From a virus, in IMG/VR virus record IMGVR_UViG_3300011258_001069, positions 1-33,601 of that record: a stretch of 33,601 nucleotides of DNA; one strand, written 5' to 3'. Shown here in pieces: positions 3,900 to 26,046 of the stretch; the stretch's first letter is position 1, and every line of letters begins with the position of its first letter. The notes beneath the pieces were generated by a model, which saw only the letters and a program-made list of their open reading frames with translations, did not search any database and was not told the DNA's origin. The translations under genes and the position numbers were made by a program.

Positions 3900-3900
3900 T

Positions 3901-6639: not shown

Positions 6640-6641
6640 GG

Positions 6642-7010
6642 TCATTCGGGCAACCTCGACATCTGCTCGGCCAGGGCCAGCACTTCGCCGCGCATGCTTT
6701 GCCATTTCTCACAGAGCGTTGCCTGCTTCTGTTCTTTGGTGATCGGCTTGATGTCGTAGTCGAGCGACTGGCCGAAGTATTCAGCCATGATGTGAATGCC
6801 CTTCTCCCGGGCCATCCGGCAGATAAAAAACAATTCATCAAGCGCGAGCTTTTCTTGACGTTCAGGATCGACGCAGTGAAGCAGTAAGCGCTGGGCATCC
6901 TTTAAGGGTTTGGAGGGCCACAGGCTGCCCGCTACCCGCTTCACGCCCAGCATTTCCAGCGTCGCTCGCAACGCTGCGTGCTCGTCGTCGTAGAACAGTT
7001 CACCCTGCAT
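6642..7010 (-). CDS. Phage regulator in the CII position
   Basis: 122 residues. It resembles a family I recall from beta- and gammaproteobacterial prophages: L-G-V-K-R-V-A-x2-L-W-P-x-K followed by D-A-Q-R-L-L-L-H-C-x-D-P-E-R-x-E-K-L and a helical C-terminus. Members sit right after cro, as here, and are often called CII-like regulators. If so, it would activate CI expression during lysogenic commitment. The ATG at 7010 has GGGGG upstream, inside a hairpin. A TTG at 7016 is a less likely start. A tandem ten-base repeat just upstream (7030-7049) looks like a CII-type target. Confidence 0.5.
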   Translation of the reverse strand: MQGELFYDDEHAALRATLEMLGVKRVAGSLWPSKPLKDAQRLLLHCVDPERQEKLALDELFFICRMAREKGIHIMAEYFGQSLDYDIKPITKEQKQATLCEKWQSMRGEVLALAEQMSRLPE

Positions 7011-7036
7011 TACCAACTACCCCCAATGATTGGTAA
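7010..7036 (-). promoter_or_regulatory. Hairpin over the ribosome site and start of the CII-like gene
   Basis: In the minus-strand transcript, TTACCAA (7036-7030) can pair with TTGGTAA (7016-7010). The loop holds the GGGGG ribosome site, and the 3' arm includes the A of the ATG. This could limit translation of the CII-like gene, or serve as a protein-binding palindrome in DNA. Confidence 0.45.
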
Positions 7037-7049
7037 GCGTTGGTAAACG
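7030..7049 (+). promoter_or_regulatory. Tandem ten-base repeat, candidate CII-type activator site (pRE-like)
   Basis: TTGGTAAGCG is followed directly by TTGGTAAACG: two copies with a ten-base period, one helical turn. Lambda CII binds TTGC-N6-TTGC with the same period at pRE, which also lies next to cII and drives cI antisense to cro. I see no convincing -10 box, so this rests on geometry and position. Confidence 0.4.
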
Positions 7050-7061
7050 CTCCTGTGGCCA

Positions 7062-7113
7062 AATAAAAAACCACCAAGCCAGCACCCTGATACGGGCGTC
7101 GCAGCTGGCTGGT
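7062..7113 (-). terminator. tR1-like rho-independent terminator between cro and the CII-like gene
   Basis: On the minus strand AGCCAGC's partner GCTGGCT (7104-7110 with 7077-7083) forms a seven-base stem. It is extended by three more pairs past one bulged base and followed by six T. The 20-base loop contains a nested CCC/GGG. It lies just after cro, as tR1 does in lambda, so passage into replication genes probably needs antitermination or leak-through. Confidence 0.75.
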
Positions 7114-7133
7114 GTAATGACCTACGGGGGTAG

Positions 7134-7352
7134 TCATGCGGCCTGCCCATAGAAGTAACGGATCAGGTCGTCGCGAGTGAGCGACCCCCCACTCGCTGCC
7201 GCCAAGCCGGCCAAAAGCTTAGGTCTCGGAATTTTGTTAGGCGGGTCGCAAATAAGGTGGCACCGGATGTAACTAACCGTTGTGCCAGCCTTTTTGGCAA
7301 AGTTTGTTTGTTGCCGCGGGTCCAGAGATCTGAAATAGGTTCGTAGGTCCAT
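7134..7352 (-). CDS. cro: Cro-like (YdaS-type) helix-turn-helix repressor
   Basis: 72 residues. The pattern F-A-K-K-A-G-T-T-V-S-Y-I-R (about 18-30) is a helix-turn-helix, followed by I-P-R-P-K-L-L-A-G-L-A, the usual second half of YdaS/Cro-type proteins. It is divergent from the CI-like gene across the TACC-N5-GGTA operators, so it is the Cro equivalent: the first gene of the lytic operon, repressing cI. The ATG at 7352 has only about a dozen bases between it and the nearest operator and no clear ribosome site, so the mRNA may be almost leaderless. A tR1-like terminator follows. Confidence 0.75.
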   Translation of the reverse strand: MDLRTYFRSLDPRQQTNFAKKAGTTVSYIRCHLICDPPNKIPRPKLLAGLAAASGGSLTRDDLIRYFYGQAA

Positions 7353-7364
7353 GATCGAAACCTA

Positions 7365-7377
7365 TACCATAAAGGTA
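7365..7377. promoter_or_regulatory. Repressor operator 1 in the cro-cI region
   Basis: TACCATAAAGGTA fits the palindrome TACC-N5-GGTA. It lies 13 bases before the cro start and overlaps the likely cro -10 region (TATAGG on the minus strand at 7366-7361, with TTGCAT at 7387-7382 as a possible -35). Confidence 0.7.
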
Positions 7378-7397
7378 AATCATGCAAGAAAAAATAT

Positions 7398-7410
7398 TAC
7401 CTTTTCGCAC
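7398..7410. promoter_or_regulatory. Degenerate operator 2 (half site)
   Basis: TACCTTTTCGCAC keeps the left TACC arm, but its right arm is GCAC instead of GGTA. Its centre is 33 bases from operator 1 and 16 from operator 3, making a three-site cluster like lambda OR. It would be the weakest site. Confidence 0.4.
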
Positions 7411-7413
7411 ATA

Positions 7414-7426
7414 TACCGTAATGGTA
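7414..7426. promoter_or_regulatory. Repressor operator 3 in the cro-cI region
   Basis: TACCGTAATGGTA is a full TACC-N5-GGTA palindrome. It lies 21 bases before the preferred cI start, where bound Cro or CI could control cI itself. Confidence 0.65.
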
Positions 7427-7447
7427 GCGATGGGTAGATTGATCCCC

Positions 7448-7870
7448 ATGACTTCTACAGAAATTAGGCGACTAAATGCACGTGCTTTGATCGAGGCAGA
7501 GTGCAATAAATCGCTCGCAGACTTCGCCCGCGAGATCGGCCGGTCCGATGCTCAAGTCAATCACCTTGTTGGGCCTAGCCCAATTAAGGGGATCGGCGAT
7601 GCGATGGCGCGCCACATTGAGAATAAATTCGGCAAGCCGCGCGGCTGGCTGGATAACGTCCATTCCCCAGCTTTAAGTGCCTCTGCGGAATGGGTCGCCA
7701 CAGTCTTTGACAGACTGGATCGAGTAAACCAGGAGAACTTCGTTAGCATGTTGCGTGGACCGGCTGAAAGAGTCGCCCCGGAACTGATGGATCAGGCGCC
7801 GACCTTCCACAACAAAAACGCTCTAACAACGAACGAGGAGCTCACGGATGACGAAGAAACAACGGTATGA
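7448..7870 (+). CDS. cI: CI-like phage repressor lacking a peptidase domain
   Basis: 140 residues from the ATG at 7448; in-frame ATGs at 7382, 7421 and 7430 would place the start inside the operators. Residues 1-65 are a helix-turn-helix domain: L-A-D-F-A-R-E-I-G-R-S-D-A-Q-V-N-H-L, then G-I-G-D-A-M-A-R-H-I-E, and K-P-R-G-W-L-D-N, the layout at the N-terminus of many phage repressors. The usual C-terminal LexA/S24 domain with its Ser-Lys pair is absent; a short acidic tail replaces it. RecA-driven self-cleavage is thus not expected. It overlaps the next gene by 23 bases. No good ribosome site is seen, as is common for leaderless cI mRNA. Confidence 0.7.
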   Translation: MTSTEIRRLNARALIEAECNKSLADFAREIGRSDAQVNHLVGPSPIKGIGDAMARHIENKFGKPRGWLDNVHSPALSASAEWVATVFDRLDRVNQENFVSMLRGPAERVAPELMDQAPTFHNKNALTTNEELTDDEETTV

Positions 7871-8123
7871 CGAATCGGTTGCTCAACTACTTGAATACTT
7901 ATCGCTGTCAGACGAAGCAATCCACATTGCCGAGGGCTGGTCCTTACTGGATGACCGGGCCAAGCGGCATGTAAAAATACTCATTGATGACCACATTTCG
8001 CGAGAAATACCGCAATTGAGACAGTATTACGCTAATGTGAGCATCAAAGATCAGGAGCGCTTCAACCGCGTAGTTGAGCGCGTGCAAGACCGCTATCGAG
8101 GAATACCACCGGAGGACGCATGA
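7848..8123 (+). CDS. Small protein co-expressed with the repressor
   Basis: 91 residues, starting inside the end of the CI-like gene. The product is helical and charged (D-D-R-A-K-R-H-V-K-I-L-I-D-D-H-I) with no recognised domain. Position and coupling suggest a partner of the repressor, such as an antirepressor, a stabiliser or the missing oligomerisation function. That is inference from context alone. Its stop overlaps the next start by four bases (ATGA). Confidence 0.55.
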   Translation: MTKKQRYDESVAQLLEYLSLSDEAIHIAEGWSLLDDRAKRHVKILIDDHISREIPQLRQYYANVSIKDQERFNRVVERVQDRYRGIPPEDA

Positions 8124-8386
8124 CAAACGACACCACCAAATGGAAAACCGCTTTCTTTGTCGCAGTATTTGCTGCGATGTTTTTCGCTGGGACCGCCTTC
8201 GGCGCGAAGGACAATCGTGAACGGGTGCCAACACACAAGAGTGTTTATAAGAACGGGTTCACAGTCCATACGCTCTCGAATGGAATTATTTGCGTAGTGT
8301 ACGAACGGGGCGGCACGGTTTCATCCGCGAAATCGGGGCTATCCTGCAATTTCGCTAATTACGATCACACTATACCCGAGATCTAA
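8120..8386 (+). CDS. Small exported or membrane-anchored protein, lysogenically expressed
   Basis: 88 residues. After a short basic start, residues 10-28 form a hydrophobic segment (A-F-F-V-A-V-F-A-A-M-F-F-A) ending in G-T-A-F-G-A. This is a signal peptide or single membrane anchor. The outer part has two Cys that may form a disulphide. It is the last gene of the cI transcript, with a terminator just after it, so it should be made in the lysogen. Superinfection exclusion is a reasonable guess for such a protein, not shown by sequence. Confidence 0.55.
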   Translation: MTNDTTKWKTAFFVAVFAAMFFAGTAFGAKDNRERVPTHKSVYKNGFTVHTLSNGIICVVYERGGTVSSAKSGLSCNFANYDHTIPEI

Positions 8387-8406
8387 AACTACCTACCGCC
8401 GATCCG

Positions 8407-8429
8407 AGCCCGCGCAATGCGGGCTTTTT
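8407..8429 (+). terminator. Rho-independent terminator after the cI operon
   Basis: AGCCCGC (8407-8413) and GCGGGCT (8419-8425) form a perfect seven-base stem with loop GCAAT, followed by TTTTG. It ends the cI transcript just before the next promoter. Confidence 0.85.
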
Positions 8430-8444
8430 GTTGCCTAAAAGATT

Positions 8445-8457
8445 TACCTTTTTGGTA
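8445..8457. promoter_or_regulatory. Repressor operator upstream of the plus-strand early promoter
   Basis: TACCTTTTTGGTA is a full TACC-N5-GGTA palindrome. It directly abuts the TTGACA -35 box at 8458. Confidence 0.75.
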
Positions 8458-8486
8458 TTGACACCATTACCTTTATGGTAAATACT
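8458..8486 (+). promoter_or_regulatory. Near-consensus early promoter of the plus-strand operon (pL-like)
   Basis: TTGACA (8458-8463), a 17-base spacer and AATACT (8481-8486) make a strong sigma-70 promoter. One operator abuts the -35 box and another fills most of the spacer, so bound repressor would block it. It should be the main early promoter for genes from 8527 onward. Confidence 0.8.
8468..8480. promoter_or_regulatory. Repressor operator inside the plus-strand early promoter
   Basis: TACCTTTATGGTA is a full palindrome that lies between the -35 and -10 boxes. Its centre is 23 bases from that of the other operator here. On the opposite strand it reads TACCATAAAGGTA, identical to operator 1 by cro. 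Confidence 0.75.
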
Positions 8487-8526
8487 CGCTCCATCAGCCA
8501 CTACTCGCTGGATGGAGATTGGAACA

Positions 8527-9111
8527 ATGCACTACCACGCCAAACTTTGGTTGCCGTCGGATCAAGACATTGAGCAGCAGGTTTCCGCAGCGCTAGAGCC
8601 GTACCGAGAAGCCTACAACGAAACGACTGAAGATCTGACAGGTTGGTGGGACTGGTTTCAAATTGGTGGGCGGTGGACCGGCACGCACATGCCGGACTAC
8701 AACCCCGAAACCGACCCCAAAAATATCGAAGCATGCGATTTTTGCCGCCAGACTGGGATGCGCGAATGGCCCGAAGATGGGCTTATGGTCAAGCGACCCT
8801 GCAACGGGTGTTCTTCAATAGACCCCGACAATCCGGGCGTGCCGAGCTACCCCTATGGGATTGGGAAAAGGCTGAAATGGCCCACGAAATGGGCCGCATT
8901 CCCACTTGACATTATTCCTGCGGACGCCGTCCAGGCTGACTTGTCGCCCTACACGTTTGTGAGCAAAGAGCACTCACTCTGCCTGCAGAAAAAAACCTGG
9001 AATGGGGAAGATTTCGTTGAAGGTGAGATCAAGGGCCGAACCGTAAAGCAGCTGCTTTCGGACTACAACATAGTGGGCGGATATCTGGTTACCGTCGACT
9101 ATCACTCATGA
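8527..9111 (+). CDS. Conserved phage protein with a four-cysteine zinc motif
   Basis: 194 residues; the ATG at 8527 has GGAGA upstream, while an ATG at 8512 overlaps that ribosome site. Key blocks are W-W-D-W-F-Q-I-G-G-R-W-T-G (40-52), then C70-x2-C73 and C92-x2-C95, then a mixed alpha/beta C-terminus. I recall similar F-x2-G-G-R-W-x-G proteins in phages of several hosts, all without a known role. As first gene of the repressed early operon it would be made at once after infection or induction. Confidence 0.6.
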   Translation: MHYHAKLWLPSDQDIEQQVSAALEPYREAYNETTEDLTGWWDWFQIGGRWTGTHMPDYNPETDPKNIEACDFCRQTGMREWPEDGLMVKRPCNGCSSIDPDNPGVPSYPYGIGKRLKWPTKWAAFPLDIIPADAVQADLSPYTFVSKEHSLCLQKKTWNGEDFVEGEIKGRTVKQLLSDYNIVGGYLVTVDYHS

Positions 9112-9323
9112 GGACGGATCCAGTGTCCGCGCTGAACCCCGCTTTTCGGCAACCTACCAGCGGCCATCGCGTCCATATGCGCGACCACAAACACCTTGCC
9201 TCGCGCCGCCGCTTAACCGCAGCCGGTCGGTTCTGGGTGCTCTACGGTGGATCGCTCTTCTTTGTGATGCTGTTCAGCCTGTCCGGTTATATCGATGCGT
9301 TCCTGCAGGCGGTGTTCCTGTAA
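9108..9323 (+). CDS. Small single-pass membrane protein
   Basis: 71 residues, start overlapping the upstream stop (ATGA). A basic N-terminal half is followed by a hydrophobic span at about residues 43-62 and a short C-terminal tail. The positive-inside rule puts the N-terminus in the cytoplasm. Function unknown. The stop overlaps the next start (TAATG). Confidence 0.55.
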   Translation: MRTDPVSALNPAFRQPTSGHRVHMRDHKHLASRRRLTAAGRFWVLYGGSLFFVMLFSLSGYIDAFLQAVFL

Positions 9324-9766
9324 TGCCGGCGTGGATGAATCAACCCTCCGGTCTGCGTCCGAAGCCTGAGCGCTGGAATGCCGTGTTAGGTATGCAGCAG
9401 CCAGTGGAACTGTACAAGCCCATGCGCTACCGCAAGCCGCGCGTTGTGACTGTTACAGGCGCCGACTTATTCGGGCCTAGCGTGCCATCCAATTACATCG
9501 GCCTGGTGTTCTCGGTGAGGTGGAAAGCATACCGACATCAGTTTCGGATCGTGACCGACTGCCCCGCGCGCGCGCAGCTTTGGGTAGGTGGGTGCACGGC
9601 ACCAGACCCAGACGGCTTTATTACCCATAACGGCAAGCCCGCGATTGGGCCTGGTACCGCGTCCTTGGATGGCAGCGGGATCATCGTTGGCTCCCTGCCT
9701 GACTGGCCCCTGGCTAACGTCAACATATTGCCGAGCGCCTCGATACCGCCAAAGGGGTTCGAATGA
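9323..9766 (+). CDS. Phage protein of unknown function
   Basis: 147 residues. The product is rich in Pro and Gly and predicted mostly beta, with V-V-T-V-T-G-A-D-L-F-G-P in the middle and no cysteine cluster. I do not recognise it. It is coupled to both neighbours by overlapping codons. The codon pattern and tiling support a real gene. Confidence 0.5.
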   Translation: MPAWMNQPSGLRPKPERWNAVLGMQQPVELYKPMRYRKPRVVTVTGADLFGPSVPSNYIGLVFSVRWKAYRHQFRIVTDCPARAQLWVGGCTAPDPDGFITHNGKPAIGPGTASLDGSGIIVGSLPDWPLANVNILPSASIPPKGFE

Positions 9767-10940: not shown

Positions 10941-11013
10941 CTAACCCAACAAACGACGAACTGAACCGGCGCGCCATATGCCTAGCAGTTATCACTAGCG
11001 AGGGAGATAAGTA
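10937..11013 (+). CDS. Possible 25-residue remnant gene
   Basis: A GTG overlapping the methyltransferase stop (GTGA) opens a 25-codon frame ending in TAA, right at the next ATG (TAATG). The product has T-N-D-E-L-N-R-R-A-I, which recalls the first residues of a common phage family beginning D-x-E-L-N-R-R, but it stops soon after. It may be a degraded copy or a leader peptide. Confidence 0.3.
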
Positions 11014-11016
11014 ATG
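10977..11016 (+). repeat. Direct repeat copy 1: translation-initiation cassette
   Basis: Forty bases ending in the ATG of the first zinc mini-protein. They match 37 of 40 bases at 11195-11234. The unit contains CTAG arms around GTTAT, then GAGGGAGA as ribosome site, then TAATG. Confidence 0.8.
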
Positions 11017-11194: not shown

Positions 11195-11234
11195 TATGCC
11201 TAGCGGTTATCGCTAGCGAGGGAGAGAAGTAATG
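11195..11234 (+). repeat. Direct repeat copy 2: translation-initiation cassette
   Basis: Forty bases ending in the ATG of the second zinc mini-protein. Here the palindromic part is complete (CTAGCGGTTATCGCTAG), giving a six-base stem with a five-base loop just before the ribosome site. Confidence 0.8.
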
Positions 11235-13551: not shown

Positions 13552-13748
13552 AAGCCCATTTGCCCAAAGTCGGTACGAGGTGGCGGCAGAAAGCAAGGCC
13601 GGACCGCGTTGCTGTGATCACTTATTTTAAATCGATGCCGCACCACATTAACCGCGGGTACGTCCGGCATACAGCCTGGTGGGTCACATGTGGTGATATT
13701 GGCAAGTGCCTGGATACATTCCTTAAGTCTTACGAACGATGCTCCTAA
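13548..13748 (+). CDS. Small basic phage protein
   Basis: 66 residues from a GTG at 13548 overlapping the upstream stop. Basic N-terminus (K-V-G-T-R-W-R-Q-K-A-R), then a beta-rich middle with T-A-W-W-V-T. Function unknown. Its end overlaps the excisionase start by ten bases. Confidence 0.5.
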   Translation: MKAHLPKVGTRWRQKARPDRVAVITYFKSMPHHINRGYVRHTAWWVTCGDIGKCLDTFLKSYERCS

Positions 13749-13954
13749 AACCCCTAGAACGTTTCAGATCGGAGAACTTCGACGGCAGACCGCCAGCCGC
13801 TCGGACGATCAAGAAATGGCCCGCTGCCGTTAAGCAGGGTAACCGGTGGTTTGTAGATATGGATGTGCTTGAGCAGAACGACCGACTGACAGAACTGGCA
13901 GAAACACTGATCGAAAACCCAGAGGTAAGGCGCTTACTTGGGGGTGTACCCTAA
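13739..13954 (+). CDS. xis: Excisionase-like DNA-binding protein
   Basis: 71 residues. Residues 8-40 look like a winged-helix excisionase: F-D-G-R-P-P-A-A-R-T-I-K-K-W, then A-V-K-Q-G-N-R-W-F-V-D. A helical C-terminus follows. It directly precedes the integrase with start and stop overlapping (TAATG), as xis precedes int in many lambdoid phages. It should bind attachment-site DNA and steer Int toward excision. Confidence 0.75.
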   Translation: MLLKPLERFRSENFDGRPPAARTIKKWPAAVKQGNRWFVDMDVLEQNDRLTELAETLIENPEVRRLLGGVP

Positions 13955-15099
13955 TGGATATGGGGAGACCGAGAACACCGGCAAACGCTGAATTGCCGCC
14001 CAATTTGAGCGAAAGCGATGGCCGGTTTAGATACCGTAGCCCATTAGACAGTATTCGGCGCTGGGTTGGCTCAGACCGTGAGGCGGCAATAAGGTTAGCG
14101 AAGGACACCAATGCGGTTTATGCGGCCATTCAGGCGCAGCGTAAGCCCGGCATGGTAACCGTCGGCCAGGGTGTCGTGTTCTACCGCGAGAACGTCCTGC
14201 CCCATAAGCCTTGGGACACTGGCACCCGTAAAAACGAAGGATGGAAGCTGGACGCGATTGAGCGCGAGATCGGCGACCGGGCCATCGCTACCACTGACCG
14301 CGTGTTCCTTGGTGATTGGCTGGACTCCAAAGCCACCACATCAGACGCATACAACAAGTGGCGTGCGCGTCTGGTTGACCTGTGGGCTTACTTCATCGCC
14401 CGGAAGTGGTGCGACTACAACGAAGCGGACGCGGTGATGAAGCGCTCCACGTCGAAGAAACTAGCGCATAACCAGAAGGTCCGCCACCGGTTAGAACTCG
14501 AAGGCTTTTGGGCGATCCACGACCACGAGAGCGCGCCGCCCTTTCTCCGGGTCGCCATGCAGCTGTCGCTGGTGTTGCTGCAGGCACGCCACGAAGTCGT
14601 GAACCTTAAAAAATCAGATTTCCGCGATGGCCGCCTGTACGTTATTCGCGACAAGACCGCTGCGGACACCGAAATGGCATTCATCAGCATCGAGGTTGAT
14701 GCGCAGCTGGAGGCGATCTACAAACTTGCGTTCTCGGACGGTATCCCCTGCCCCTACCTTGTGCACTACCGCCCAGAGCGCGAGCGGCGCGAATGGCGCA
14801 ACGCTAAGCCACACGCGTTCGCTGTGACGCCTAAGTACCTCACTGACGCATTCAGGGACACCAGGAACGCTACAGGCCAGTGGTCGCACTTACAGCCACG
14901 CGAGCGGCCATCGTTCCATGAGATCCTGTCGCTGGGCATGCGGTTATATCGGAAGGCCGGGCAATCTCGGGATTACATTCGGGCGCTGCGTGGCCACGCT
15001 GACGAGAAAACGACGGATATCTATCTGCAGGGTGGCGTGGTGACTGATGATCGATACCAGCAGGTGACGGCTGGGCTTACTTTGGAGGGTTTGCGGTGA
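13954..15099 (+). CDS. int: Tyrosine-recombinase integrase
   Basis: 381 residues. The N-terminus (M-G-R-P-R-T-P-x-N-x2-L-P-P-N-L, from residue 3) matches the arm-binding start of lambda-type integrases. The catalytic domain shows R212 (Q-A-R-H-E-V), a beta-hairpin Lys in R-D-K-T-A, H322 in F-H-E-I-L-S-L-G, H348 in R-G-H-A-D-E-K-T-T, and Y357 as nucleophile. The second catalytic Arg of the H-x2-R box is Leu (L325; codon CTG, one base from CGG). The attP site lies 545 bases downstream and matches tRNA-Gly, so this enzyme targets that gene. ATGs at 13954 and 13960 are both possible. Confidence 0.9.
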   Translation: MDMGRPRTPANAELPPNLSESDGRFRYRSPLDSIRRWVGSDREAAIRLAKDTNAVYAAIQAQRKPGMVTVGQGVVFYRENVLPHKPWDTGTRKNEGWKLDAIEREIGDRAIATTDRVFLGDWLDSKATTSDAYNKWRARLVDLWAYFIARKWCDYNEADAVMKRSTSKKLAHNQKVRHRLELEGFWAIHDHESAPPFLRVAMQLSLVLLQARHEVVNLKKSDFRDGRLYVIRDKTAADTEMAFISIEVDAQLEAIYKLAFSDGIPCPYLVHYRPERERREWRNAKPHAFAVTPKYLTDAFRDTRNATGQWSHLQPRERPSFHEILSLGMRLYRKAGQSRDYIRALRGHADEKTTDIYLQGGVVTDDRYQQVTAGLTLEGLR

Positions 15100-15368
15100 A
15101 AATACTATCAGCCGATGGATCGATCACTTTGGCGTGTGACTTCTGCAACACGCAAGGCAGTGTTGGCGTTACGGCTGAGTTCACGCACCGACCGGACCCT
15201 GAAGTCGGGTTTAAGACATGGTTCCATATCTGTGCATCATGTTATGAAGATCGAGTCTTGCCCTGGCTGGTTGGCCAAGGTGTGCAGCCTGGTTTTATGT
15301 ACGTCGAAACGCAGCGAGAAGCTGGGGCTTTAAGGGTTATCGGGGCCAGCTCGGAGGTGGCGCGGTGA
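15096..15368 (+). CDS. Small zinc-binding-type protein after integrase
   Basis: 90 residues from a GTG at 15096 overlapping the integrase stop (GTGA). C-D-F-C (about 14-17) and C-A-S-C (about 47-50) make a probable zinc ribbon. No family recognised. Because it follows int it may be made together with it. Confidence 0.55.
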   Translation: MKILSADGSITLACDFCNTQGSVGVTAEFTHRPDPEVGFKTWFHICASCYEDRVLPWLVGQGVQPGFMYVETQREAGALRVIGASSEVAR

Positions 15369-15559
15369 GTTACGAGTTTATATTCTGGTTCCTGAGCGGA
15401 TACCAGCTATATTGCGCTGGGCTTTTGATAGTAATGGCAGTTGCGGGGGTAAACGTCGTTGACAGCGTCGCATTCCGTTATTTCGCCATCCACGGGGCCG
15501 GCGCATTAGGTGCGCTTTCGATCGGCCTGGCTGCCATTGATATCGTCATGCGGGCGTAG
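15365..15559 (+). CDS. Small membrane protein with two hydrophobic spans
   Basis: 64 residues from a GTG overlapping the previous stop. Residues 4-31 and 38-62 are hydrophobic, giving a two-pass hairpin with almost no soluble part. Function unknown; a superinfection or host membrane role is only a guess. It is the last gene of the plus-strand operon before the hairpin and attP. Confidence 0.5.
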   Translation: MSYEFIFWFLSGYQLYCAGLLIVMAVAGVNVVDSVAFRYFAIHGAGALGALSIGLAAIDIVMRA

Positions 15560-15560: not shown

Positions 15561-15602
15561 TGGGCCATTGGGCCATTGAGTTTATGGCCCATATTTGGCC
15601 CA
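15561..15602 (+). terminator. Two-tier hairpin at the end of the integrase operon
   Basis: TGGGCCA (15561-15567) pairs with TGGCCCA (15596-15602), and inside it GGGCCAT (15570-15576) pairs with ATGGCCC (15584-15590). The loop is TGAGTTT. There is no T-run directly after it, but a weak CCC/GGG hairpin with TATTTTT lies at 15604-15621. It may be a bidirectional or leaky terminator, or a protein-binding site next to attP. Confidence 0.5.
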
Positions 15603-15644: not shown

Positions 15645-15690
15645 TGGAGCGGGAAACGAGATTCGAACTCGCGACCCCAACCTTGGCAAG
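15645..15690 (-). other. attP: attP core: 3' half of a tRNA-Gly(GCC) gene
   Basis: On the minus strand these 46 bases run from CTTGCCAAGG (anticodon loop TTGCCAA, anticodon GCC) through the T-arm (GAGTTCGAATCTC) and the acceptor 3' strand TTCCCGC to TCCA. This is the 3' half of bacterial tRNA-Gly(GCC) with an encoded CCA. The bases beyond the anticodon loop do not form the 5' half of a tRNA, so this is only the integration core. Phage genes lie on both sides, which makes it attP. The antisense reading gives the familiar spurious R-F-E-L-A-T-P-T-L-A peptide. Confidence 0.9.
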
Positions 15691-15775
15691 ATTATCCGCT
15701 GACCCGACTAAGTGCGCGCATTGTATAGGAAAGTGGATTTTTTGGAAGTGCTGCAACCTGACCGGAGATTGTCAT

Positions 15776-16255
15776 ATGAGTACATTATTAAAGTCGGCCG
15801 TGTTCAGCGAGGATCGAGCTTATCGCTACCAGCTAACCAGAACTTGGGACGAAACGAACGCGGATATTTGCGCCTTCATCGGACTAAATCCAAGCACCGC
15901 AGACGAGACTGAGGATGATCCAACGATTAGGCGGTGTATTGATTTTGCGCGCCAGTGGGGGCATGGCGGCCTAATAATGCTAAACCTATTCGCCTTTAGA
16001 GCGACTGACCCAAAAGTAATGAAGGCAGCCGCTGACCCGATTGGGCCGGAGAATATTTTTAAAATTTTAGAGGGCTGTGAGCGGTCAAGCAGGGTTGTTG
16101 CCGCGTGGGGCGTACATGGTAGCCATATGGGGATGGGGCGCCGGGTGGCGAAGTTAATGCAACCTCGCCTCGAGTGCCTTGGGACAACAAAGGCCGGACA
16201 CCCTCGCCACCCTCTCTATCTGAGGAAAGACACAAAGCCCGCGGCGTTTAACTAA
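15776..16255 (+). CDS. DUF1643-family protein
   Basis: 159 residues from an ATG at 15776 with GGAGA upstream. A longer frame reaching 15644 translates the antisense of the tRNA core and is not real. The DUF1643 pattern is clear: F-I-G-L-N-P-S-T-A-D, D-D-P-T-I-R-R-C-I-D-F-A, L-N-L-F-A-F-R-A-T-D-P, A-A-W-G-x2-G, and a final L-G-T-T-K-A-G-H-P-R-H-P-L-Y-L. The function of the family is not established. It lies between attP and the tail genes on the opposite strand, the usual place for cargo (moron) genes. Ends overlap the fibre gene by eight bases. Confidence 0.85.
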   Translation: MSTLLKSAVFSEDRAYRYQLTRTWDETNADICAFIGLNPSTADETEDDPTIRRCIDFARQWGHGGLIMLNLFAFRATDPKVMKAAADPIGPENIFKILEGCERSSRVVAAWGVHGSHMGMGRRVAKLMQPRLECLGTTKAGHPRHPLYLRKDTKPAAFN

Positions 16256-17435
16256 TCAACGACCCCAACGATCCACCGTCGAATGTTTCGGACCCACCTG
16301 GGTGGAACTGGATGCCGGTCAACGGCCCGGACAGCGCCTTAGACCCAGCAAACAAGTTGACGTTGTCATTAGGTTCGTCCGCAATTACCCCGGAATAACT
16401 CCATAGGTTTGTTGCTCGGTCCATCAAAACGAAGCGCACCTGCCCGCTGAATTCGTCAGTTGCCAGCTCGGTGTTGGCAATAAATATAGCTGAGCCCAAA
16501 GCATACGAATTAGTCGACACCCCAAGCCCCTGCCCCGCACCCTTGTAGCCTGTTGATTCCGGGCCGCCAGCGTCAACCATTCTGAAAAACGAAATCGCCG
16601 TGCCGGTTGATGACGCTTCGTCGAGACTGATCACTACCTCAGTGGCCCAGGCCGGAACTGGCAGCGTATAGGACGATAGCGTATCAAGCGCCACCAGCCC
16701 GCCCAACTTAGCGGGCGTAAATGACGGCGTGTCCTGCGACAGCTGGCCGTAACTTAGGGTCGCAAGCCCGCTGTCGAGCGCACCGCTGTTATCAACGACA
16801 ACGTTAACCGTCGTGTTCGGATCAGAGTACGAACTGCTGGTGATAGTGGCGTAGTCGGTGCCAGCTGTGTCCGTCGTGCGGATCCGGCGCCCGGCGTGCA
16901 ATATTGCGGTTTGATCGCCTGGCACCGTGAACTGGGTATCAGACACCCGCGTCGGTGTAAGTCCAGACCGGTGCCACTCGCTTGATACATCCTCGTCGCC
17001 ATAACTGCGATCGACCTCCACCAAAGACGTAGTGCCGCGGCGCTGGAAGCACACCCACTTATCCAGGGCGTCCAACACAAAGTCGGCGCCGTCGCGCATG
17101 AGCATTTCGCCGGTGCTGCCGTCTGCGTGCTTGAGTGTGACTACTCGCGACGCGTTTTCAGCGTGCAGCCATATAAGCGCGCCGTCTGGGATATTGGTTA
17201 ACGACACGGTGTCCAAATCATCCGCTGCGGCGCCTGATTCCGTATCGATCGTGAAGTTGCCGCCGTGATCGCGTGTAGCGGGCGTTACTGTGCCGCCCGA
17301 TATCGTTAGCTCTACACGCGGCCATCCACCAGGCAGAATCGAGACGACGTCCCGCTCCGCCTCGACCGCGACCTTCATTTCCGCAACCGTCCGGACGGCG
17401 TTTTGCATGTAGTTAGAGGCTGGTAAGTCTGGCAT
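16248..17435 (-). CDS. Tail fibre or receptor-binding protein candidate
   Basis: 395 residues, last gene of the late operon. The sequence is rich in Ser, Thr, Gly and Asp with short beta strands throughout and almost no charged helices, as in trimeric fibre or tip-attached proteins. The end has G-G-S-E-T-F-D-G-G-S-L-G-S-L. No enzymatic motif is seen. Position downstream of the J-like tail-tip gene supports a host-recognition role. Confident it is a tail-surface protein, not of the precise type. Confidence 0.6.
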   Translation of the reverse strand: MPDLPASNYMQNAVRTVAEMKVAVEAERDVVSILPGGWPRVELTISGGTVTPATRDHGGNFTIDTESGAAADDLDTVSLTNIPDGALIWLHAENASRVVTLKHADGSTGEMLMRDGADFVLDALDKWVCFQRRGTTSLVEVDRSYGDEDVSSEWHRSGLTPTRVSDTQFTVPGDQTAILHAGRRIRTTDTAGTDYATITSSSYSDPNTTVNVVVDNSGALDSGLATLSYGQLSQDTPSFTPAKLGGLVALDTLSSYTLPVPAWATEVVISLDEASSTGTAISFFRMVDAGGPESTGYKGAGQGLGVSTNSYALGSAIFIANTELATDEFSGQVRFVLMDRATNLWSYSGVIADEPNDNVNLFAGSKALSGPLTGIQFHPGGSETFDGGSLGSLIS

Positions 17436-17438
17436 TGC

Positions 17439-17732
17439 TTACTCCGTAAACTGGAATTCGTCGTCGCACCAAAAGCGCAAACGTGTTTGTAATTTTTGGG
17501 TTAAATCGAAATATTGCGGGTTCGTATCGATCTGCGACGCGACGAGCGCATCAACCTCCGATCGAGACCAGGCCGCAGGGCGGCGTTGGTCATCGCCCGC
17601 AGCTGGAGCGAATTCACAATCTTCGAAAGCAGTTTCGCCTCGCGTCTCAAGCGTTACGCGCACAATCCACCGGTGCACAAATCCAGAATCGCGATCGATA
17701 ACTGGTCGGTGGTGAGACAAATACCGATCCAC
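17439..17732 (-). CDS. Small late protein between tail tip and fibre
   Basis: 97 residues from a GTG at 17732, just after the J-like gene's stop. It has a helical centre (S-R-S-E-V-D-A-L-V-A-S-Q-I-D) and no known motif. It may be a fibre chaperone or a small tip subunit, judged from position only. Confidence 0.5.
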   Translation of the reverse strand: MDRYLSHHRPVIDRDSGFVHRWIVRVTLETRGETAFEDCEFAPAAGDDQRRPAAWSRSEVDALVASQIDTNPQYFDLTQKLQTRLRFWCDDEFQFTE

Positions 17733-17733
17733 G

Positions 17734-20700
17734 TCAGTACCCGATCACGGTGGCGTCGATGGTCTCAGCCACCCGCGCGCCGGTTGTGGCGTTTAATACT
17801 TCAATTGATGGTCCGCTTGTGGCGTTTTTGTCCAACTGGTCGACGACTCGCGGGCCGCCTGCGTTCTGAACGGTGTAGTTGACCGACTTGATCACGCGGT
17901 ACGTTTTGGTGATGGGCAGGCGAACAGTGTCGGTATCCGCGACGGCAAAGTCCTCGATCGCTTCGATAATGTCCGGCACATCAACCAGAACATCGAAGTT
18001 AGAAATCACCCCGCGCACGTTACTGGCGGCAGTGGTGATCCTGAACTCGAACGTTGTGTCGTCGCTGTTAAGCGGGCCAAGCAAGCCCGGCCAGGTGTTC
18101 CACTCGCTGACGGTTGACGCCGCCCAAAACAGATCGCCATCTGAGCCCCAAAAGGTTGATCCGTCTGAGCCCCAGAACGTCGGAGAATCGACCTCGCGGT
18201 AATCAACGGAAAAGTCACCCGCAACGGTGAGCGCCAATTTAATGGTGGCTCCGATGTGGTTGGCGACCGGGTCATATGTTGCGGTGTACGTTGCTGCCTT
18301 ATAGGTCACTGTCGGCCAGAACGTGTCGCCGTCCGAGCCCCAGAACAGGCTGGAATTCTCGCCCCAGAACATCGGGTCGCCGTCAACGTCGGCGTTCAAT
18401 TCGTTCGAGATCACCGACGCGTTGGTGATGGTGCCAGCGAACGATGGATCCTCGCTCTGCGTCAAGATCAGGTTACTTGTCAGCGGGTCGCCCAGGTTAA
18501 TGGTCACGATCGCCGGGTTTTCTGAAACGTTGCCGGCTACGTCCACCGCGACAACCAGGATCGTCTGGGTGCCATCCAGTGAACTGATATCGAATCGTGA
18601 TTCCGAGAGATTCCCAGAATGCAGATCGCGGGCCTGCTGCCAGTTCGTGTTCGACCCGTAGTTCGCCCGGACTCGAAACCCGGCGAAGTCCGACGACGGA
18701 TCCGGGTACGACCACGAGATAAAATCACCCTGCCGGAATATGTGGTCAATGTCTGGCGGCGGCTCCACCAAGCCGATCACGGTTTCGGTGTGGGTAACCC
18801 AGCTCGAGGTTGCGCCGGCCGGGCCGACTGCGCGCAGGCGAATATCGTAAATCTGGCCGGTTTCCACCGGCGTGATCGTGTAGCTCTGCGCACCGGGTTC
18901 GAGTGTCACTTGCTCGAACGGCAAGTCGGTTAGCAAGGTGCCGTCGACAAACTGGGCTACCAAGCGCCACTGCACCTGCAGCGCGGTTACCGGCACGGCG
19001 CCGGCGTTCGGGTTGACTGAAAACGCCAGCTCTATTTGCGGGAAAACCGCCCCGTTGTTGCTTACGTAGCCCGCCCCCTCGTCGCTCACCACCGACAATA
19101 GCGACGGCTTAGCTGGTGTAACGCGGCTGAGCTCTGGCGGTAACGTGATCACCGGGTCGTGTGGCGGGATCTCGCCGTCCGCCGCCGTATAGACACCTGG
19201 GGCGTAAGGGATCATCGTGATGGCGGCCGACAAGTCCGGGCGGGGCTCTATCGACCGGATCAGGCATTCGATTGACTCGCTGCCGGACTCGCCGAACGCC
19301 GCCAGCAGATCACCAACAGCCGGCGCTGCTTCACTCGACGCGATTGGCGTTTCAAAAGTAAGTGTGGATTGTTCGCCGTCCACCGTGGTTATGGGCAGCA
19401 GCAACGATGCACCAGACGACAACCGAAAGCGTGCCGAATAGCTTTTCCCGGACTCCATCGGCATGGGCGCGTCGACCGAAACACTGACTGTGTCGCTGCC
19501 GCTTGTGTTTACCGCGGTAACGCGTGCTGACCCAAGCCCGATCAGCGGCACATCATGGGTAAAGCGGACCAGGTCGCCCACTTCACAGCGGACGTGCTCG
19601 ACGTCGGTCTCGATCGAGAATAATTCCGCGCGCAGCTTGGCTGCTGCGATCTTCCAACGGCCGACCTTCCACGCTGTGGTCGCCTTCGTGGTGAATGGCA
19701 GATCAACAACCTCGAACTTGGTGGCGTTGGCTTCTGTGTACCCATCATCGTAGACAATGATCTCGTCGAACTGGTGCAACGTGGCTTCATTCGGGAAACG
19801 GACCTTGAGCGCGTGCGGGAAGTCGCCAAAGTACCGAACACCGGTAAAACCCCACGAGTTACGCGGCGAGAAATGCTGCGCGATTGTGGTCCTGGGCTTA
19901 TCGACCACCACGCTATATTTGTGGTTCGAGTAGGTCAGTATCGCGTTACCGGTGGCGGCTATTTCCTGCAGTAGATCACGAACTGGGACGGCATCCTCGA
20001 TCGCCGCGTCAAACGTCAGCCCCTCCGCATCGCAGTAGTTCGCCCACTCAAGCATGGTGTCGAGATCGACGCGATCAGTGCTTATTGCGCGCGCGTTTGC
20101 AGATCCAGTGGCGACGTCGACGAATGCCCATGCAGGATTTCGGGTTTTCTGCGTTGACCAGGTGGATCCGTTCCACACCGGCAACCGACGCTCGACCGTA
20201 AGGTTTAGCGTCTGAATAACACCGTTGAGCTCGTCGGATGCCTTGGCCCGCAACGCGATGATGGAAACACCGGTGCGGTTGATCGGATCTTCGTTGGTGA
20301 ATGATCGGATCGAGGTCCACCAGGAATCCTCGGTCGTTATGTAAGTCGCGCCATCACCAATATCAGACTGATCGTCGACCGTCACACGCTTGAGGCGCAC
20401 GTCGTACTGGTCGCGTGTAGGGAACACCACACGCAGATCCGATCGCACAGCAGATTTAAGCTGCCCGCGGATCGTGAACAAGCCGCCGCCGTCGATGACC
20501 ACCGCACCGCTGGATTTTTCTACCGGCGCTGCCAGCCACGTCGTGTTACCGACCTTGCGGTATTGCATCTGGAACTGAACGCCCATCGCGTGCTTCGCGT
20601 TGGAGGCGCTGATCCGCTGCAGGCCGTTCGGGAACGTGATATCGACGAATATTTCGTCGGTGCTCGGCTGTGTGCGGCGCTGGCTGTATCCGCCGGCCTT

Positions 20701-21462
20701 TTTGAGTTGAATGCTTAACGGTTCCTCGCGCACCTGCGACGGGAATGTCCGGGTGGTCGACCCGCCAGAACCGTCGCGGGTGACAACAATGAAATCGCTA
20801 AAGCCCGACGTCGGCGTTGTGCCAACCTTGATGTCGGACATATCGACCGGGCCTTCGCCACAGGTCAGCAGCATGCGCAAATACTGATCAGACGCGCTGC
20901 CTATGATCTCAGTGTAAGGCTGCGCGGCAAGCGGCGGGTGATAGTTCACCAGGCGGCCGTAAATGACTGGGATCGAACCGTAGGGGCGGGCCTGGTTCTG
21001 CGTGCCTTGAATGGATCGTTTCGCTTCTGGCGCCGGGCCGTCTGGCAGCCTGACCGGGCCGCGGTGGGTCGGCGCCAACGCCTGCGCACCCAGTGACGCG
21101 CCGACGGTGATCGCTGCCTTGAGCGCGAACGTTGCAATTTTGCTGAGCCCTAACGCTGGCACAAAGGCAGCTGCAGCCAACCCAGCGATCTGGACAAACA
21201 GCGATCCGAAACCATCGCCAGGCACGACACGCACAGCGACCTGGGTGCCGGCCTTGGCGCGAATGATCGGCCACAACGCCTTGGGAACGGCGCGATCATT
21301 AATAACGACGTGGGCGCGCTGCAGCGCACGCGGGTCGATTTCAGTGCGCTTGATGATCTCGACAAGTGTGTCGTCAATCGTGCGGCCAGCGTCCAGATCA
21401 AACGTCACCCGGTCCAGCCGCAACGCATGCGGCAATGCAACCACTTGGACGCTACCCGACAT
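17734..21462 (-). CDS. J: Tail-tip host-specificity protein (lambda J-like)
   Basis: 1242 residues. The N-terminal 130 carry an L-A-A-A-A-F-V-P-A-L-G-L-type hydrophobic helix pair, followed by the A-K-R-S-I-Q-G-T-Q-N-Q-A-R-P-Y-G-S-I-P-V-I-Y-G block of phage tail-tip proteins. A long beta-rich body follows with fibronectin-like segments (about 820-1010). Near the C-terminus, F-W-G-S-D-G-x-x-F-W units recur in two clusters (about 1032-1053 and 1096-1114). It should form the central tip and contact the receptor. It overlaps the NlpC/P60 gene by 11 bases, following the lambda L-K-I-J logic. Confidence 0.9.
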   Translation of the reverse strand: MSGSVQVVALPHALRLDRVTFDLDAGRTIDDTLVEIIKRTEIDPRALQRAHVVINDRAVPKALWPIIRAKAGTQVAVRVVPGDGFGSLFVQIAGLAAAAFVPALGLSKIATFALKAAITVGASLGAQALAPTHRGPVRLPDGPAPEAKRSIQGTQNQARPYGSIPVIYGRLVNYHPPLAAQPYTEIIGSASDQYLRMLLTCGEGPVDMSDIKVGTTPTSGFSDFIVVTRDGSGGSTTRTFPSQVREEPLSIQLKKAGGYSQRRTQPSTDEIFVDITFPNGLQRISASNAKHAMGVQFQMQYRKVGNTTWLAAPVEKSSGAVVIDGGGLFTIRGQLKSAVRSDLRVVFPTRDQYDVRLKRVTVDDQSDIGDGATYITTEDSWWTSIRSFTNEDPINRTGVSIIALRAKASDELNGVIQTLNLTVERRLPVWNGSTWSTQKTRNPAWAFVDVATGSANARAISTDRVDLDTMLEWANYCDAEGLTFDAAIEDAVPVRDLLQEIAATGNAILTYSNHKYSVVVDKPRTTIAQHFSPRNSWGFTGVRYFGDFPHALKVRFPNEATLHQFDEIIVYDDGYTEANATKFEVVDLPFTTKATTAWKVGRWKIAAAKLRAELFSIETDVEHVRCEVGDLVRFTHDVPLIGLGSARVTAVNTSGSDTVSVSVDAPMPMESGKSYSARFRLSSGASLLLPITTVDGEQSTLTFETPIASSEAAPAVGDLLAAFGESGSESIECLIRSIEPRPDLSAAITMIPYAPGVYTAADGEIPPHDPVITLPPELSRVTPAKPSLLSVVSDEGAGYVSNNGAVFPQIELAFSVNPNAGAVPVTALQVQWRLVAQFVDGTLLTDLPFEQVTLEPGAQSYTITPVETGQIYDIRLRAVGPAGATSSWVTHTETVIGLVEPPPDIDHIFRQGDFISWSYPDPSSDFAGFRVRANYGSNTNWQQARDLHSGNLSESRFDISSLDGTQTILVVAVDVAGNVSENPAIVTINLGDPLTSNLILTQSEDPSFAGTITNASVISNELNADVDGDPMFWGENSSLFWGSDGDTFWPTVTYKAATYTATYDPVANHIGATIKLALTVAGDFSVDYREVDSPTFWGSDGSTFWGSDGDLFWAASTVSEWNTWPGLLGPLNSDDTTFEFRITTAASNVRGVISNFDVLVDVPDIIEAIEDFAVADTDTVRLPITKTYRVIKSVNYTVQNAGGPRVVDQLDKNATSGPSIEVLNATTGARVAETIDATVIGY

Positions 21463-21853
21463 ATCGGAAATACCCCACGATCCGGTTACACCACTGCACG
21501 CTGCGGGTGCTTTCGATCGCAGATTCGCCTTCGCGCGTAATGTTCAGCATCCTCACGCTGTCGACCATTACGGCGATGTGCGATGCCTGGCCATTAATGC
21601 GTATAAGCACGAGATCGAGCGACTGCGGCCGGCTGACTTCTTTCCAGTCGCTGCGGTTCTCATCGATGATCCGCGCAAGCTCGGCGCGCTCTCGCCGGCA
21701 AATGTCGCCGTATTCGTTATATTCTGGGATCTGGATACCCGCTGCGCGATACACAAGCACCGCCAAGCCCCAGCAATCAACACCGTTAAGATCGCGACCA
21801 CGATCCACGAACGGGATCCCGACGTGGTCGCTGAACACCGCGGCGTTATTCAT
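21452..21853 (-). CDS. NlpC/P60-family tail assembly peptidase (lambda K-like)
   Basis: 133 residues from an ATG at 21853 inside the end of the DUF1833 gene. The NlpC/P60 core is present: D-C-W-G-L with C27 as nucleophile and S-H-I-A-V-M-V with H92 as base. Such proteins lie just before the tail tip and may open peptidoglycan during DNA entry or process the tip. The lambda K N-terminal JAB-type domain is missing, so only the C-terminal half is present, as in many smaller phages. Confidence 0.8.
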   Translation of the reverse strand: MNNAAVFSDHVGIPFVDRGRDLNGVDCWGLAVLVYRAAGIQIPEYNEYGDICRRERAELARIIDENRSDWKEVSRPQSLDLVLIRINGQASHIAVMVDSVRMLNITREGESAIESTRSVQWCNRIVGYFRYVG

Positions 21854-22334
21854 CGACACCAGCAAACAATGCAGGGAAGCCTTGCGGGGTAAAGCGGGCA
21901 GCAGGGAACGGTTCGGTTAGGAAATCTTCCTCAAACCCGATCGAGGCTTCGATCGTTTGCGCGTCGTAATCGGCTGACTTTAATTTGAAATCAAGCGGGC
22001 CGATCTCGACGGTGTCGGGAGCATCGTGGGATATGAGCTCAAGCGATATTGTGGGCGGCGTGGTGATGGTGCGGATCTCGTCCATCAGTTCGCGGCTGAC
22101 GTTCCCGATCACCAGGCGCACCGATGGCACCTCGTTTTCGATTGACGGCGGCAGGCTGATCGAGAACGGGAAAGCGGTGTAAGTGTTGGAGCGCGACACA
22201 ATGTCGGCACGGTCGTCGGTGAGGCGAATCGGGGTGGTTAGGTCGGCGTGCGTGATGGTCAGAAGGTGCAGGAATACTTTGTCGGTTGTTTCGGCGTGAA
22301 TGGCTTCCAGCCAGGCCGTAGACAGATCCCTCAC
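21846..22334 (-). CDS. DUF1833-family distal tail protein (lambda L-like position)
   Basis: 162 residues from a GTG at 22334. Pattern of the DUF1833 family: W-L-E-A-I-H-A-E, F-L-H-L-L-T-I-T-H, R-L-T-D-D, F-P-F-S-I-S-L-P, then a final F-P-A-L-F. These proteins lie between the tape-measure/minor tail genes and NlpC/P60 and are thought to build the distal tail adaptor. Starts and stops overlap both neighbours. Confidence 0.75.
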   Translation of the reverse strand: MRDLSTAWLEAIHAETTDKVFLHLLTITHADLTTPIRLTDDRADIVSRSNTYTAFPFSISLPPSIENEVPSVRLVIGNVSRELMDEIRTITTPPTISLELISHDAPDTVEIGPLDFKLKSADYDAQTIEASIGFEEDFLTEPFPAARFTPQGFPALFAGVDE

Positions 22335-22681
22335 TCAAGGCGCTCCAGTCTAAGGGCAGCCTTCCACTTACCCCCGCCCAGCGCTGTAAATTGCGGCGGC
22401 GCGTCAAACGTGTACTCCGCGACCGTACCGTCGTCGAAGTCGATCCAATCAAATGGCAGTGTTCCAGCGGTCAGCGTCGTTTTGTAGAACGTTTTTAGGG
22501 AGGCCCGTTGCGCAGAATTCAAAAACAAAGTCACTGAATACGCGACCAGATCGACGCTGAAACGGCGTCGACGCTTGGGTCGGCCTGCATCGACGCTTGA
22601 TTTGATGACGTTGCCCCCGCTGGCTTCGCTATACCCCTCGCGCAGCGGTGTTTGCGGCAGTTCCGTCGGCCAGACTGCCAT
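22331..22681 (-). CDS. Minor distal tail protein (lambda M-like position)
   Basis: 116 residues. W-P-x-x-L-P-Q at the start and R-x-R-x-R-R-F-S-V-D-L then F-L-N-S-A-Q-R-A-S-L-K-T-F-Y are typical of the small tail protein that follows the tape measure in many siphophages. It probably joins tape measure and tip. Its ATG overlaps the tape-measure stop by one base. Confidence 0.65.
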   Translation of the reverse strand: MAVWPTELPQTPLREGYSEASGGNVIKSSVDAGRPKRRRRFSVDLVAYSVTLFLNSAQRASLKTFYKTTLTAGTLPFDWIDFDDGTVAEYTFDAPPQFTALGGGKWKAALRLERLE

Positions 22682-24846
22682 TACCGACCAACCATTGCCG
22701 GACGCATGCCGGCGTTAACCAAGCGGCCAGAGTTGCGCAAGCTTCCTAAAGACGATTCGACCATGACATCGATGACACGCCGGCCGTTTTCGGTTCGTTC
22801 GTTCGCTGTCGCCTCGGTGTTTGGGGCGCTGTTGTTGACGTTGACCACAACGCCGCCACCGCTGCCGCCAGGCTCAATGCCCGTGCCTACTGCCACGACT
22901 TCTCCGCGCTTGGCAGTAAATGCGACTGGGTGCTCGGATCCAGAACCACCAACCTTGTACAACCCGCCCTTGGCATTGCCAAAGAGATTTAAGCCGCTGA
23001 ACGCGTCCGATAGAAAGTCGCCCAACGGCTCGGTGATAACTTTTCGCGCTAAAATCCTGACGATGTCTTGCCCGATCCCCTTGAGCACATCGGAAAATTT
23101 ATTTCCGTTCACAATTGCGTTCTCGAACGCGGATGAAAACGTGAGCCCGAGATCCTTGGCAACGTCGTTAGCGCCGCGAGCGTCCTCCTGCAACTGCTTG
23201 AGTCGTTCCTGGGCCTTGCCTACTGCACGCTCTAATGTTTCATCATCAAGGCCGAGCGTAGATAGGCGCTGCACTTCTTTCGCATATTGCTCAAGTGGTG
23301 TGCGCGTAGCGTCGATGACATTCTGGACATCGGCGATGCGTTTTTGTTGTTCTTCCGCGATCTCGTCGCCGCCATCGATGATTGACTGCACCATCGCTTC
23401 CTCGGCTTCCTCGCGACGTTTAACTGCGTCGATTTCTTCTGATAGGGCGATGATCCGCTGGCGTGTTGCTGCATCAGCGCCTGACAAACCGCCCTGCTCC
23501 AAATCGAACCGGGCTTTAGCCGCCGCTGATGTGTCATTTAGCAGCGCAAGCTGGCGTTCCAGTCCCTCGATGTATCGTTTTTCCGCTTTCTCGCGTTTTT
23601 CGCGGGCTTTGTCCGTGCCGACCAGATCCGGGATGTCAAAAGACTGTGCGGGCGCTGAGGCGCTAGTTTTCTTAAGATCCGCCTGGCGTTTTTTCTCTAA
23701 CTCTTTAGCGAACGCGCGAGCCTCCTCGAGTCGCCGCAGTTCGCCCTGCAGTTGACCGATCTGCTCACGGATCTCATTAAGAGAATCTAACCCCGTTGTT
23801 GCGACGCGTAACGGTAGGGGTTTGGATAACGCAGCCTTAAGTGACTCGATGTCAGATTCGACATCCGTGATCTGATCATCAAAACGATCGATTGTGTTCG
23901 CTGATCCGTTAAAAAATTCTGCCCAGAATTCGCCAGCACTTGATGTCGCGCTTGATAAAGTTGCAATTGAGTCAGTGGCTGTCGTGATGGCGCTAACAAC
24001 GCCGGTCGCGAAATTCTGCAGCCCCTGCCTAATAGCAGGATCGTTTAATGTTGCCCTGAATTGATCAATGCCGTCGATCAACTGCTTCGTATCGATTTCC
24101 GACAGCGCTAGCTGAACGTCATTGCGCAAGCGGGTAAACGCATCCGAGATCTTGACCGGCAGCTGGGTAAATTCTCGATCGATCGTTTCAGATTGAGACA
24201 GCAGAGCAGCAATGACCGCATCAGCGGTAAGCGCGCCTTCTTTACCGAGCTCCCGAAGTTTCCCGATATTGACGCCAAGCCCCTGCGCAACAGCCTGGGC
24301 CAGGCGTGGCAAGTTCTCCAGAATTGACCGAAGTTCGTCACCTTGCAAGCGGCCAGAGGCTAAGCCCTGAGCGAATTGGATGGCACCAGCGGCCGCCTCC
24401 TGGCTTGTCGCCCCGGATATCTGAATGGCTTTATTGGTCGCGATGGTGACCGCTTCCAGTGTTGCCTGCTCAAGATTCAACTCACGCGCAGAACGTGCAA
24501 CGCGAGCGTATAGATTCGCGGTCGCCCCAAACTCTGATCGCGTATCTTGAGCAATACGAAACACCGCAGCGGTGGTATTTTCCAGCTCCGCTTGCGACTT
24601 AGTGACCAGACGCAGCTGGCCTTCGTATCGCTTAAAATCGTCCGTCGCCTGAACAATACCGCGAGCGATGGCGGCGAACGACAACCCTGCCCCAATCTGA
24701 CCAAGCGAGCGTCGCGCCGCTTGTGCAGATCTCTGCATCTTCTTAACGTCACGGGAAACAACCTTAGACGCCCGCCCCATGTCTTTGCGCAAGCGAGCGA
24801 CATCCGCCCCGAGCTCAAGAACAACGGATCCGAGAGTGCCGGCCAT
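22681..24846 (-). CDS. Tail tape measure protein
   Basis: 721 residues. The N-terminal 250 match the tape-measure domain: coiled coil, then F-K-R-Y-E-G-Q-L-R-L-V-T-K-S, F-G-A-T-A-N-L-Y-A-R, G-A-I-Q-F-A-Q-G-L-A-S-G-R-L-Q-G-D-E-L-R-S-I-L-E-N-L-P-R-L. A long helical middle (250-560) and a lambda H-like end (F-S-S-A-F-E-N-A-I...L-S-D-A-F-S-G) follow. At about 0.15 nm per residue it implies a tail near 110 nm. It scaffolds tail-tube length and is ejected with DNA. Confidence 0.93.
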   Translation of the reverse strand: MAGTLGSVVLELGADVARLRKDMGRASKVVSRDVKKMQRSAQAARRSLGQIGAGLSFAAIARGIVQATDDFKRYEGQLRLVTKSQAELENTTAAVFRIAQDTRSEFGATANLYARVARSARELNLEQATLEAVTIATNKAIQISGATSQEAAAGAIQFAQGLASGRLQGDELRSILENLPRLAQAVAQGLGVNIGKLRELGKEGALTADAVIAALLSQSETIDREFTQLPVKISDAFTRLRNDVQLALSEIDTKQLIDGIDQFRATLNDPAIRQGLQNFATGVVSAITTATDSIATLSSATSSAGEFWAEFFNGSANTIDRFDDQITDVESDIESLKAALSKPLPLRVATTGLDSLNEIREQIGQLQGELRRLEEARAFAKELEKKRQADLKKTSASAPAQSFDIPDLVGTDKAREKREKAEKRYIEGLERQLALLNDTSAAAKARFDLEQGGLSGADAATRQRIIALSEEIDAVKRREEAEEAMVQSIIDGGDEIAEEQQKRIADVQNVIDATRTPLEQYAKEVQRLSTLGLDDETLERAVGKAQERLKQLQEDARGANDVAKDLGLTFSSAFENAIVNGNKFSDVLKGIGQDIVRILARKVITEPLGDFLSDAFSGLNLFGNAKGGLYKVGGSGSEHPVAFTAKRGEVVAVGTGIEPGGSGGGVVVNVNNSAPNTEATANERTENGRRVIDVMVESSLGSLRNSGRLVNAGMRPAMVGR

Positions 24847-24848
24847 AA

Positions 24849-25055
24849 CTACCCCGCGTTAAAAAACTGCTTTATTGATTCAGTGTCGCTCGGGCCTTGT
24901 TGGACCGAATCACCAGGTGCTGCCGTATCGATCGCCGTTGCGGCGCTCGTTTCATAGAAGTCTGCAGCGTGTTCGTTAAACTCCCTCGCGTCCATCGTCG
25001 CGGCGAGTTCTTTTACCGTGCGGCCCATCTGACGCGCCAAAGCGCGCACGAACAT
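24849..25055 (-). CDS. T part of the tail assembly chaperone (frameshift extension)
   Basis: 68 codons from an ATG at 25055; R-A-L-A-R-Q-M-G-R-T-V-K-E-L and M-D-A-R-E-F-N-E-H-A-A-D-F-Y match the T region of lambda-type GT proteins. It probably is not made alone but as the C-terminal extension of G after a -1 shift at 25076-25082. The -1 frame from that site runs with no stop into this one. G and GT hold the tape measure while the tube polymerises. Confidence 0.8.
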   Translation of the reverse strand: MFVRALARQMGRTVKELAATMDAREFNEHAADFYETSAATAIDTAAPGDSVQQGPSDTESIKQFFNAG

Positions 25056-26010: not shown

Positions 26011-26046
26011 GTGTTTTTCCTTTAGCTTTGCGCCGCGGTTGCGGGT

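Follow-up and report, generated by a model that had tools for sequence, protein, structure and literature searches.

A probable attP core copied from tRNA-Gly(GCC) in a lambda-like siphophage, near an integrase with leucine at its second catalytic arginine position

The window analysed here is the whole virus record IMGVR_UViG_3300011258_001069, 33,601 bp long and classed as linear, and it is the genome of a lambda-like temperate siphophage. An excisionase gene (71 aa, phrog_629; 13739-13954, plus strand) overlaps by one base the start of a gene encoding a lambda-type tyrosine integrase of 381 aa with an N-terminal arm-binding domain (13954-15099, plus strand). Two small genes with no assigned function, of 90 and 64 aa (15096-15559, plus strand), sit between the integrase gene and the arms of the attachment site, which is adjoined on its other side by a DUF1643 gene (15776-16255, plus strand; PF07799, E 1e-44). 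The late operon follows on the minus strand (16248-33600) and comprises tail fibre J, tape measure, major tail, connectors, capsid, protease, portal and the terminase large subunit, the last truncated at its 5' end by the right contig end. A preliminary description had placed the integrase on one side of the attachment core and tail genes on the other; this is borne out, although the intervening DUF1643 gene had gone unmentioned.

At the left contig end, genes on the minus strand lead out of the contig toward position 1, and the gene at 408-1211 is Q-like (antiterminator-like) in our reading, by its position and a cysteine motif and not by a family match. Next to it, between the Q-like and HNH genes, the phage encodes an RRM-type RNA-binding protein (1212-1526; PF00076, E 3.8e-19). 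The protein at 3901-4431 strongly matches a PHROG named cysteine dioxygenase (E 3.6e-53) and has no Pfam match, so the name may be wrong. A direct repeat of 40 bp, 93% identical, occupies 10977-11016 and 11195-11234, both copies ending at an ATG; it may serve as a duplicated operator or translation leader.

The attachment core itself, at 15645-15690 on the minus strand, is an exact copy of positions 31-76 of tRNA-Gly(GCC), from the anticodon loop through CCA. It reads CTTGCCAAGGTTGGGGTCGCGAGTTCGAATCTCGTTTCCCGCTCCA, while the full gene measures 76 nt, and beyond the core the tRNA identity extends to 48 of 49 positions. That these bases equal the 3' half of the tRNA had been proposed from the letters of the window, and a search against tRNA genes agrees, as full tRNA-Gly(GCC) genes with exactly the same letters were recognised by ARAGORN in four viral contigs (L002, L004, L007 and L010). 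Chance does not account for an exact 46-mer, since even a 96% match to it gave E = 3e-12 in a search of 2.3 Gb of phage DNA. The preliminary description was equally right that the 5' half of the tRNA is missing: it is absent from the whole window at up to 3 mismatches, and the 30 bases at its expected position match tRNA-Gly at only 5. ARAGORN found no tRNA gene in the window and Rfam no RNA family at the gathering score. The bases that follow the core (15691-15775), unlike a tRNA 5' half, form the other putative phage arm of attP. The locus thus combines a 3' tRNA part ending in CCA, an adjacent integrase in the orientation seen in relatives and phage DNA on the far side, as is usual for an attP of the tRNA type.

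The core lies 545 bp past the end of the integrase gene, with the tRNA 3' end facing the integrase as in most relatives; this gap exceeds that of most of them, because the two small genes intervene. The exact core also occurs in four other viral contigs (L003, L005, L008 and L009), where the right flanks are identical, the left flanks nearly so, and a tRNA 5' half is lacking; these probably show the attP of a second phage lineage with tRNA-Gly as its target.

To place this arrangement in its family, bacterial genomes were scanned with a profile built from the window integrase and four phage relatives. The search recovered at least 79 related integrase loci, and among the matches listed 70 of 79 have a tRNA gene, or a tRNA 3' half of about 45 nt, within about 1.3 kb downstream of the integrase gene. 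The tRNAs concerned are mostly Val(GAC), and also Pro, Ala and Thr, among the matches listed. In most loci the tRNA 3' end points toward the integrase gene, in some the opposite way; where only part of the tRNA is copied, the copy usually starts with the first bases of the anticodon loop. Within viral contigs the closest integrases are those of L105 (43% identity), L106 (42%) and L187 (44% over a partial length). The first and the last of these contigs have tRNA-like 3' ends that point the other way, while L106 carries a tRNA-Gly-like 3' half (TGGAGCGGGAAAAGGGGCTCGAACCCTCGACCTCAACCTTGGCAAG) 122 bp after its integrase gene, in the same orientation as in the window and with phage genes on both sides. 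A scan of the viral contigs with the integrase as a single protein found no relatives; those named here came from profile scans. The window integrase was not found in L003 and L005-L009, which share the same 46-mer, nor in the portal relatives L012-L015, by a search that had no internal positive control.

This family habit bears on whether the tRNA half could be a chance leftover, that is, a displaced fragment unrelated to integration. Prokaryotic genomes commonly carry tRNA fragments left by integration (PMC9897764), which is the point in favour of such an origin. Against it, the position, orientation and boundary of the fragment fit the attP pattern of the whole family, and arm-like repeats adjoin the core and recur in L106, so that we regard a chance leftover as extremely improbable. 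Together with the integrase family and the cases of Acinetobacter phage 4316 and L007 described below, these data strongly support the proposal that the 46 bases are an attP core derived from tRNA-Gly(GCC).

The repeats in question are TGGGCCA heptamers, present four times between the integrase gene and the core (15561-15602), twice in each direction. The whole window holds eight such heptamers, four of them here beside the core. L106 has the same layout with the heptamer TGGGACA, and in other relatives two or three repeats stand in tandem between the integrase gene and the core, for example CCCGAAA or TTTTGCAAAAG. The TGGGCCA copies are likely to be arm-type Int sites, of the P' arm. The same segment folds well as an RNA hairpin (z -3.5) and could possibly be the terminator of the integrase operon; both readings are kept, but relatives too have tandem repeats between the integrase gene and the core.

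The integrase raises a separate question. Taken within a family profile (alignment A1), the integrase aligns along its whole length with lambda Int (1z1b; E 1.5e-48, profile positions 2-370), covering the arm-binding, core-binding and catalytic domains. Five of the six catalytic residues are present (R212, K234, H322, H348 and Y357), and the second arginine, Arg II, is replaced by Leu325 (CTG, 14926-14928), leaving the set R, K, H, R, H, Y incomplete. The protein is still a homologue of the lambda-type Int, from which catalytic competence does not follow. Arg II is kept in 159 of the 160 readable relatives. Across the genome and phage set it is found in 79 of 81 readable sequences, all but the window and L071, and in the viral loci in 80 of 80. 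With leucine at this position the integrase may be unable to recombine, and present-day use of the attP is therefore unproven.

One consequence would be that the core is a relic: the integrase would have lost catalysis and the phage would now be obligately lytic or live as an extrachromosomal phage-plasmid. Beyond the rarity of Leu325 among relatives, a weak ParB-like match at 2866-3735 speaks for this, as does the presence of related integrases on records filed as plasmids. The protein concerned, however, matches a family of unknown function far better than it matches ParB, and ParA was not recognised among the proteins scanned. The integrase frame, the excisionase and the other catalytic residues are also intact and the core is undecayed, the L071 integrase has the same leucine beside a complete tRNA-Val, and the Leu325 codon may possibly be a single-base consensus error. 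Weighing these points, we consider a relic unlikely, although it deserves to be kept in mind. That the Leu325 enzyme still works, either alone or with a host or co-resident recombinase, beside an intact tRNA-Gly attP and excisionase, is given only a slender chance. If it did work, L071 would count as another such case, with the same change next to an intact tRNA-Val. The change from Arg to Leu also makes it possible to ask, on a small scale, whether integrases of this kind tolerate the loss of Arg II.

We also considered in which form the molecule was sequenced. When the contig ends are joined, the genes fall into the usual circular lambda-like order, with the break between the Q-like side and the terminase. 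The break is thus inside the phage map and not at the attachment site, where an integrated prophage would break, and this supports an excised or packaged molecule. Judging from the gene order, the sequenced molecule is accordingly the probable excised, circular or packaged (virion) form, with the core as part of its attP. The preliminary description had read the locus as belonging to a non-integrated genome; phage genes flank the core on either side and the break lies elsewhere, both in agreement with this, but the same letters would result if the assembler had joined the two attachment copies of an integrated prophage through the 46-bp repeat, or from tandem prophages. Repeats of this kind do flank integrated elements, as in L007. 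Nevertheless, host genes are recognised at neither contig end, both ends fall within the phage map, and assemblers usually run k-mers above 46, which argues against a join through the repeat; both origins are, in our view, quite improbable.

Taken together, we conclude with high confidence that 15645-15690 is the attP of a lambda-like temperate siphophage which would target tRNA-Gly(GCC), exchange strands at the anticodon loop and rebuild the tRNA, and which was sequenced in its excised form. On this model Int would occupy both the arm sites beside the core and, around the anticodon loop, its core sites. Strand exchange would take place within the 7-bp loop TTGCCAA (15683-15689, minus strand), which starts at tRNA position 32; we infer the crossover to be there because throughout the family it is at the anticodon loop that identity with host tRNAs sets in. 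The phage would insert into the host tRNA-Gly(GCC) gene, and its own 3' half would replace the displaced one on the integrase side, giving a complete tRNA-Gly there and preserving a working host tRNA.

For an environmental phage that otherwise lacks a host, the model supplies an integration site that is precise and can be tested. As a prediction, the earlier claim that the core gives this site exactly is fair; set against it are the leucine at Arg II and the lack of any integrated tRNA-Gly relative among the matches listed. Prophages bearing this integrase beside tRNA-Gly, which had been suggested as a check, were not encountered in cellular genomes among those matches, and neither was an integrated copy of the window phage. 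The further idea that the core narrows the host fares poorly. The exact 46-mer occurs in 78 of 369 species sampled evenly from the Gammaproteobacteria, the class of Marinobacter, with Marinobacter pelagius among the carriers, and it was also found in Oceanospirillum beijerinckii. Identification of the host from the core failed because too many gammaproteobacteria match it; as the sample consisted of Gammaproteobacteria, the core points at best to this class and not to a genus.

Several known systems can be compared with the window. Phages PS3 of Marinobacter, PotUPM1 of Pseudomonas, Ab105-2phi of Acinetobacter and P24 of Alteromonas likewise have a small gene followed by the integrase gene and, downstream of it, a lone tRNA 3' half of about 45 nt starting from the anticodon loop; arm-like repeated motifs are present in several of them. 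Their integrases are 32-34% identical to that of the window in the first three phages and 28% in P24. Unlike the window, they use tRNA-Val or tRNA-Pro and keep the second catalytic arginine. L106 (IMGVR_UViG_3300049016_000012) is like the window in integrase sequence, in the orientation of its tRNA-Gly-like 3' half and in the layout of its arm repeats, but it has the arginine, and its core differs at several bases, so that its host tRNA is probably a different one; the other window proteins gave no match in L106.

The same core sequence also occurs with other integrases. In the circular record of Acinetobacter phage 4316 a tyrosine integrase again neighbours the 46-nt tRNA-Gly(GCC) core, here at 97.8%, but this integrase is shorter and, relative to the core, is read from the other strand, and the gene set is different. 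In L007 an unrelated integrated element of 9.1 kb (449-9609) is flanked by 49-bp repeats, each with the exact 46-mer inside and one of which is part of a whole tRNA-Gly, so that the same 46-mer serves as attachment site with another integrase. Besides an integrase of its own, this element encodes a protease-capsid protein and a fragment that resembles a tape measure, all identified from their translations only, and on that basis it looks like a phage satellite.

In phages with tyrosine integrases, cores of 30-45 bp that include a tRNA 3' half, with the tRNA rebuilt, are typical (PMC10865867), and tRNA-Gly is a known phage integration target (PMC10865867; PMC7549136). Actinobacteriophages with a tRNA-Gly attB, such as BritBrat and Spooky with their 47-bp cores, also use the 3' half of a tRNA-Gly and rebuild the tRNA on integration (PMC10865867), but theirs is tRNA-Gly CCC/TCC and the setting is Actinobacteria. 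We rejected tRNA-dependent lysogeny, in which a core of about 10 bp is accompanied by a phage tRNA of the same isotype (PMC10865867), because the window has a 46-bp core and no tRNA gene. The attP arrangement is hence a textbook one, an ordinary addition to the known tRNA-targeting integrases with one odd integrase residue. It extends to Gly a single integrase family already spread over tRNAs for Val, Pro, Ala and Thr, with the same boundary kept at the anticodon loop.
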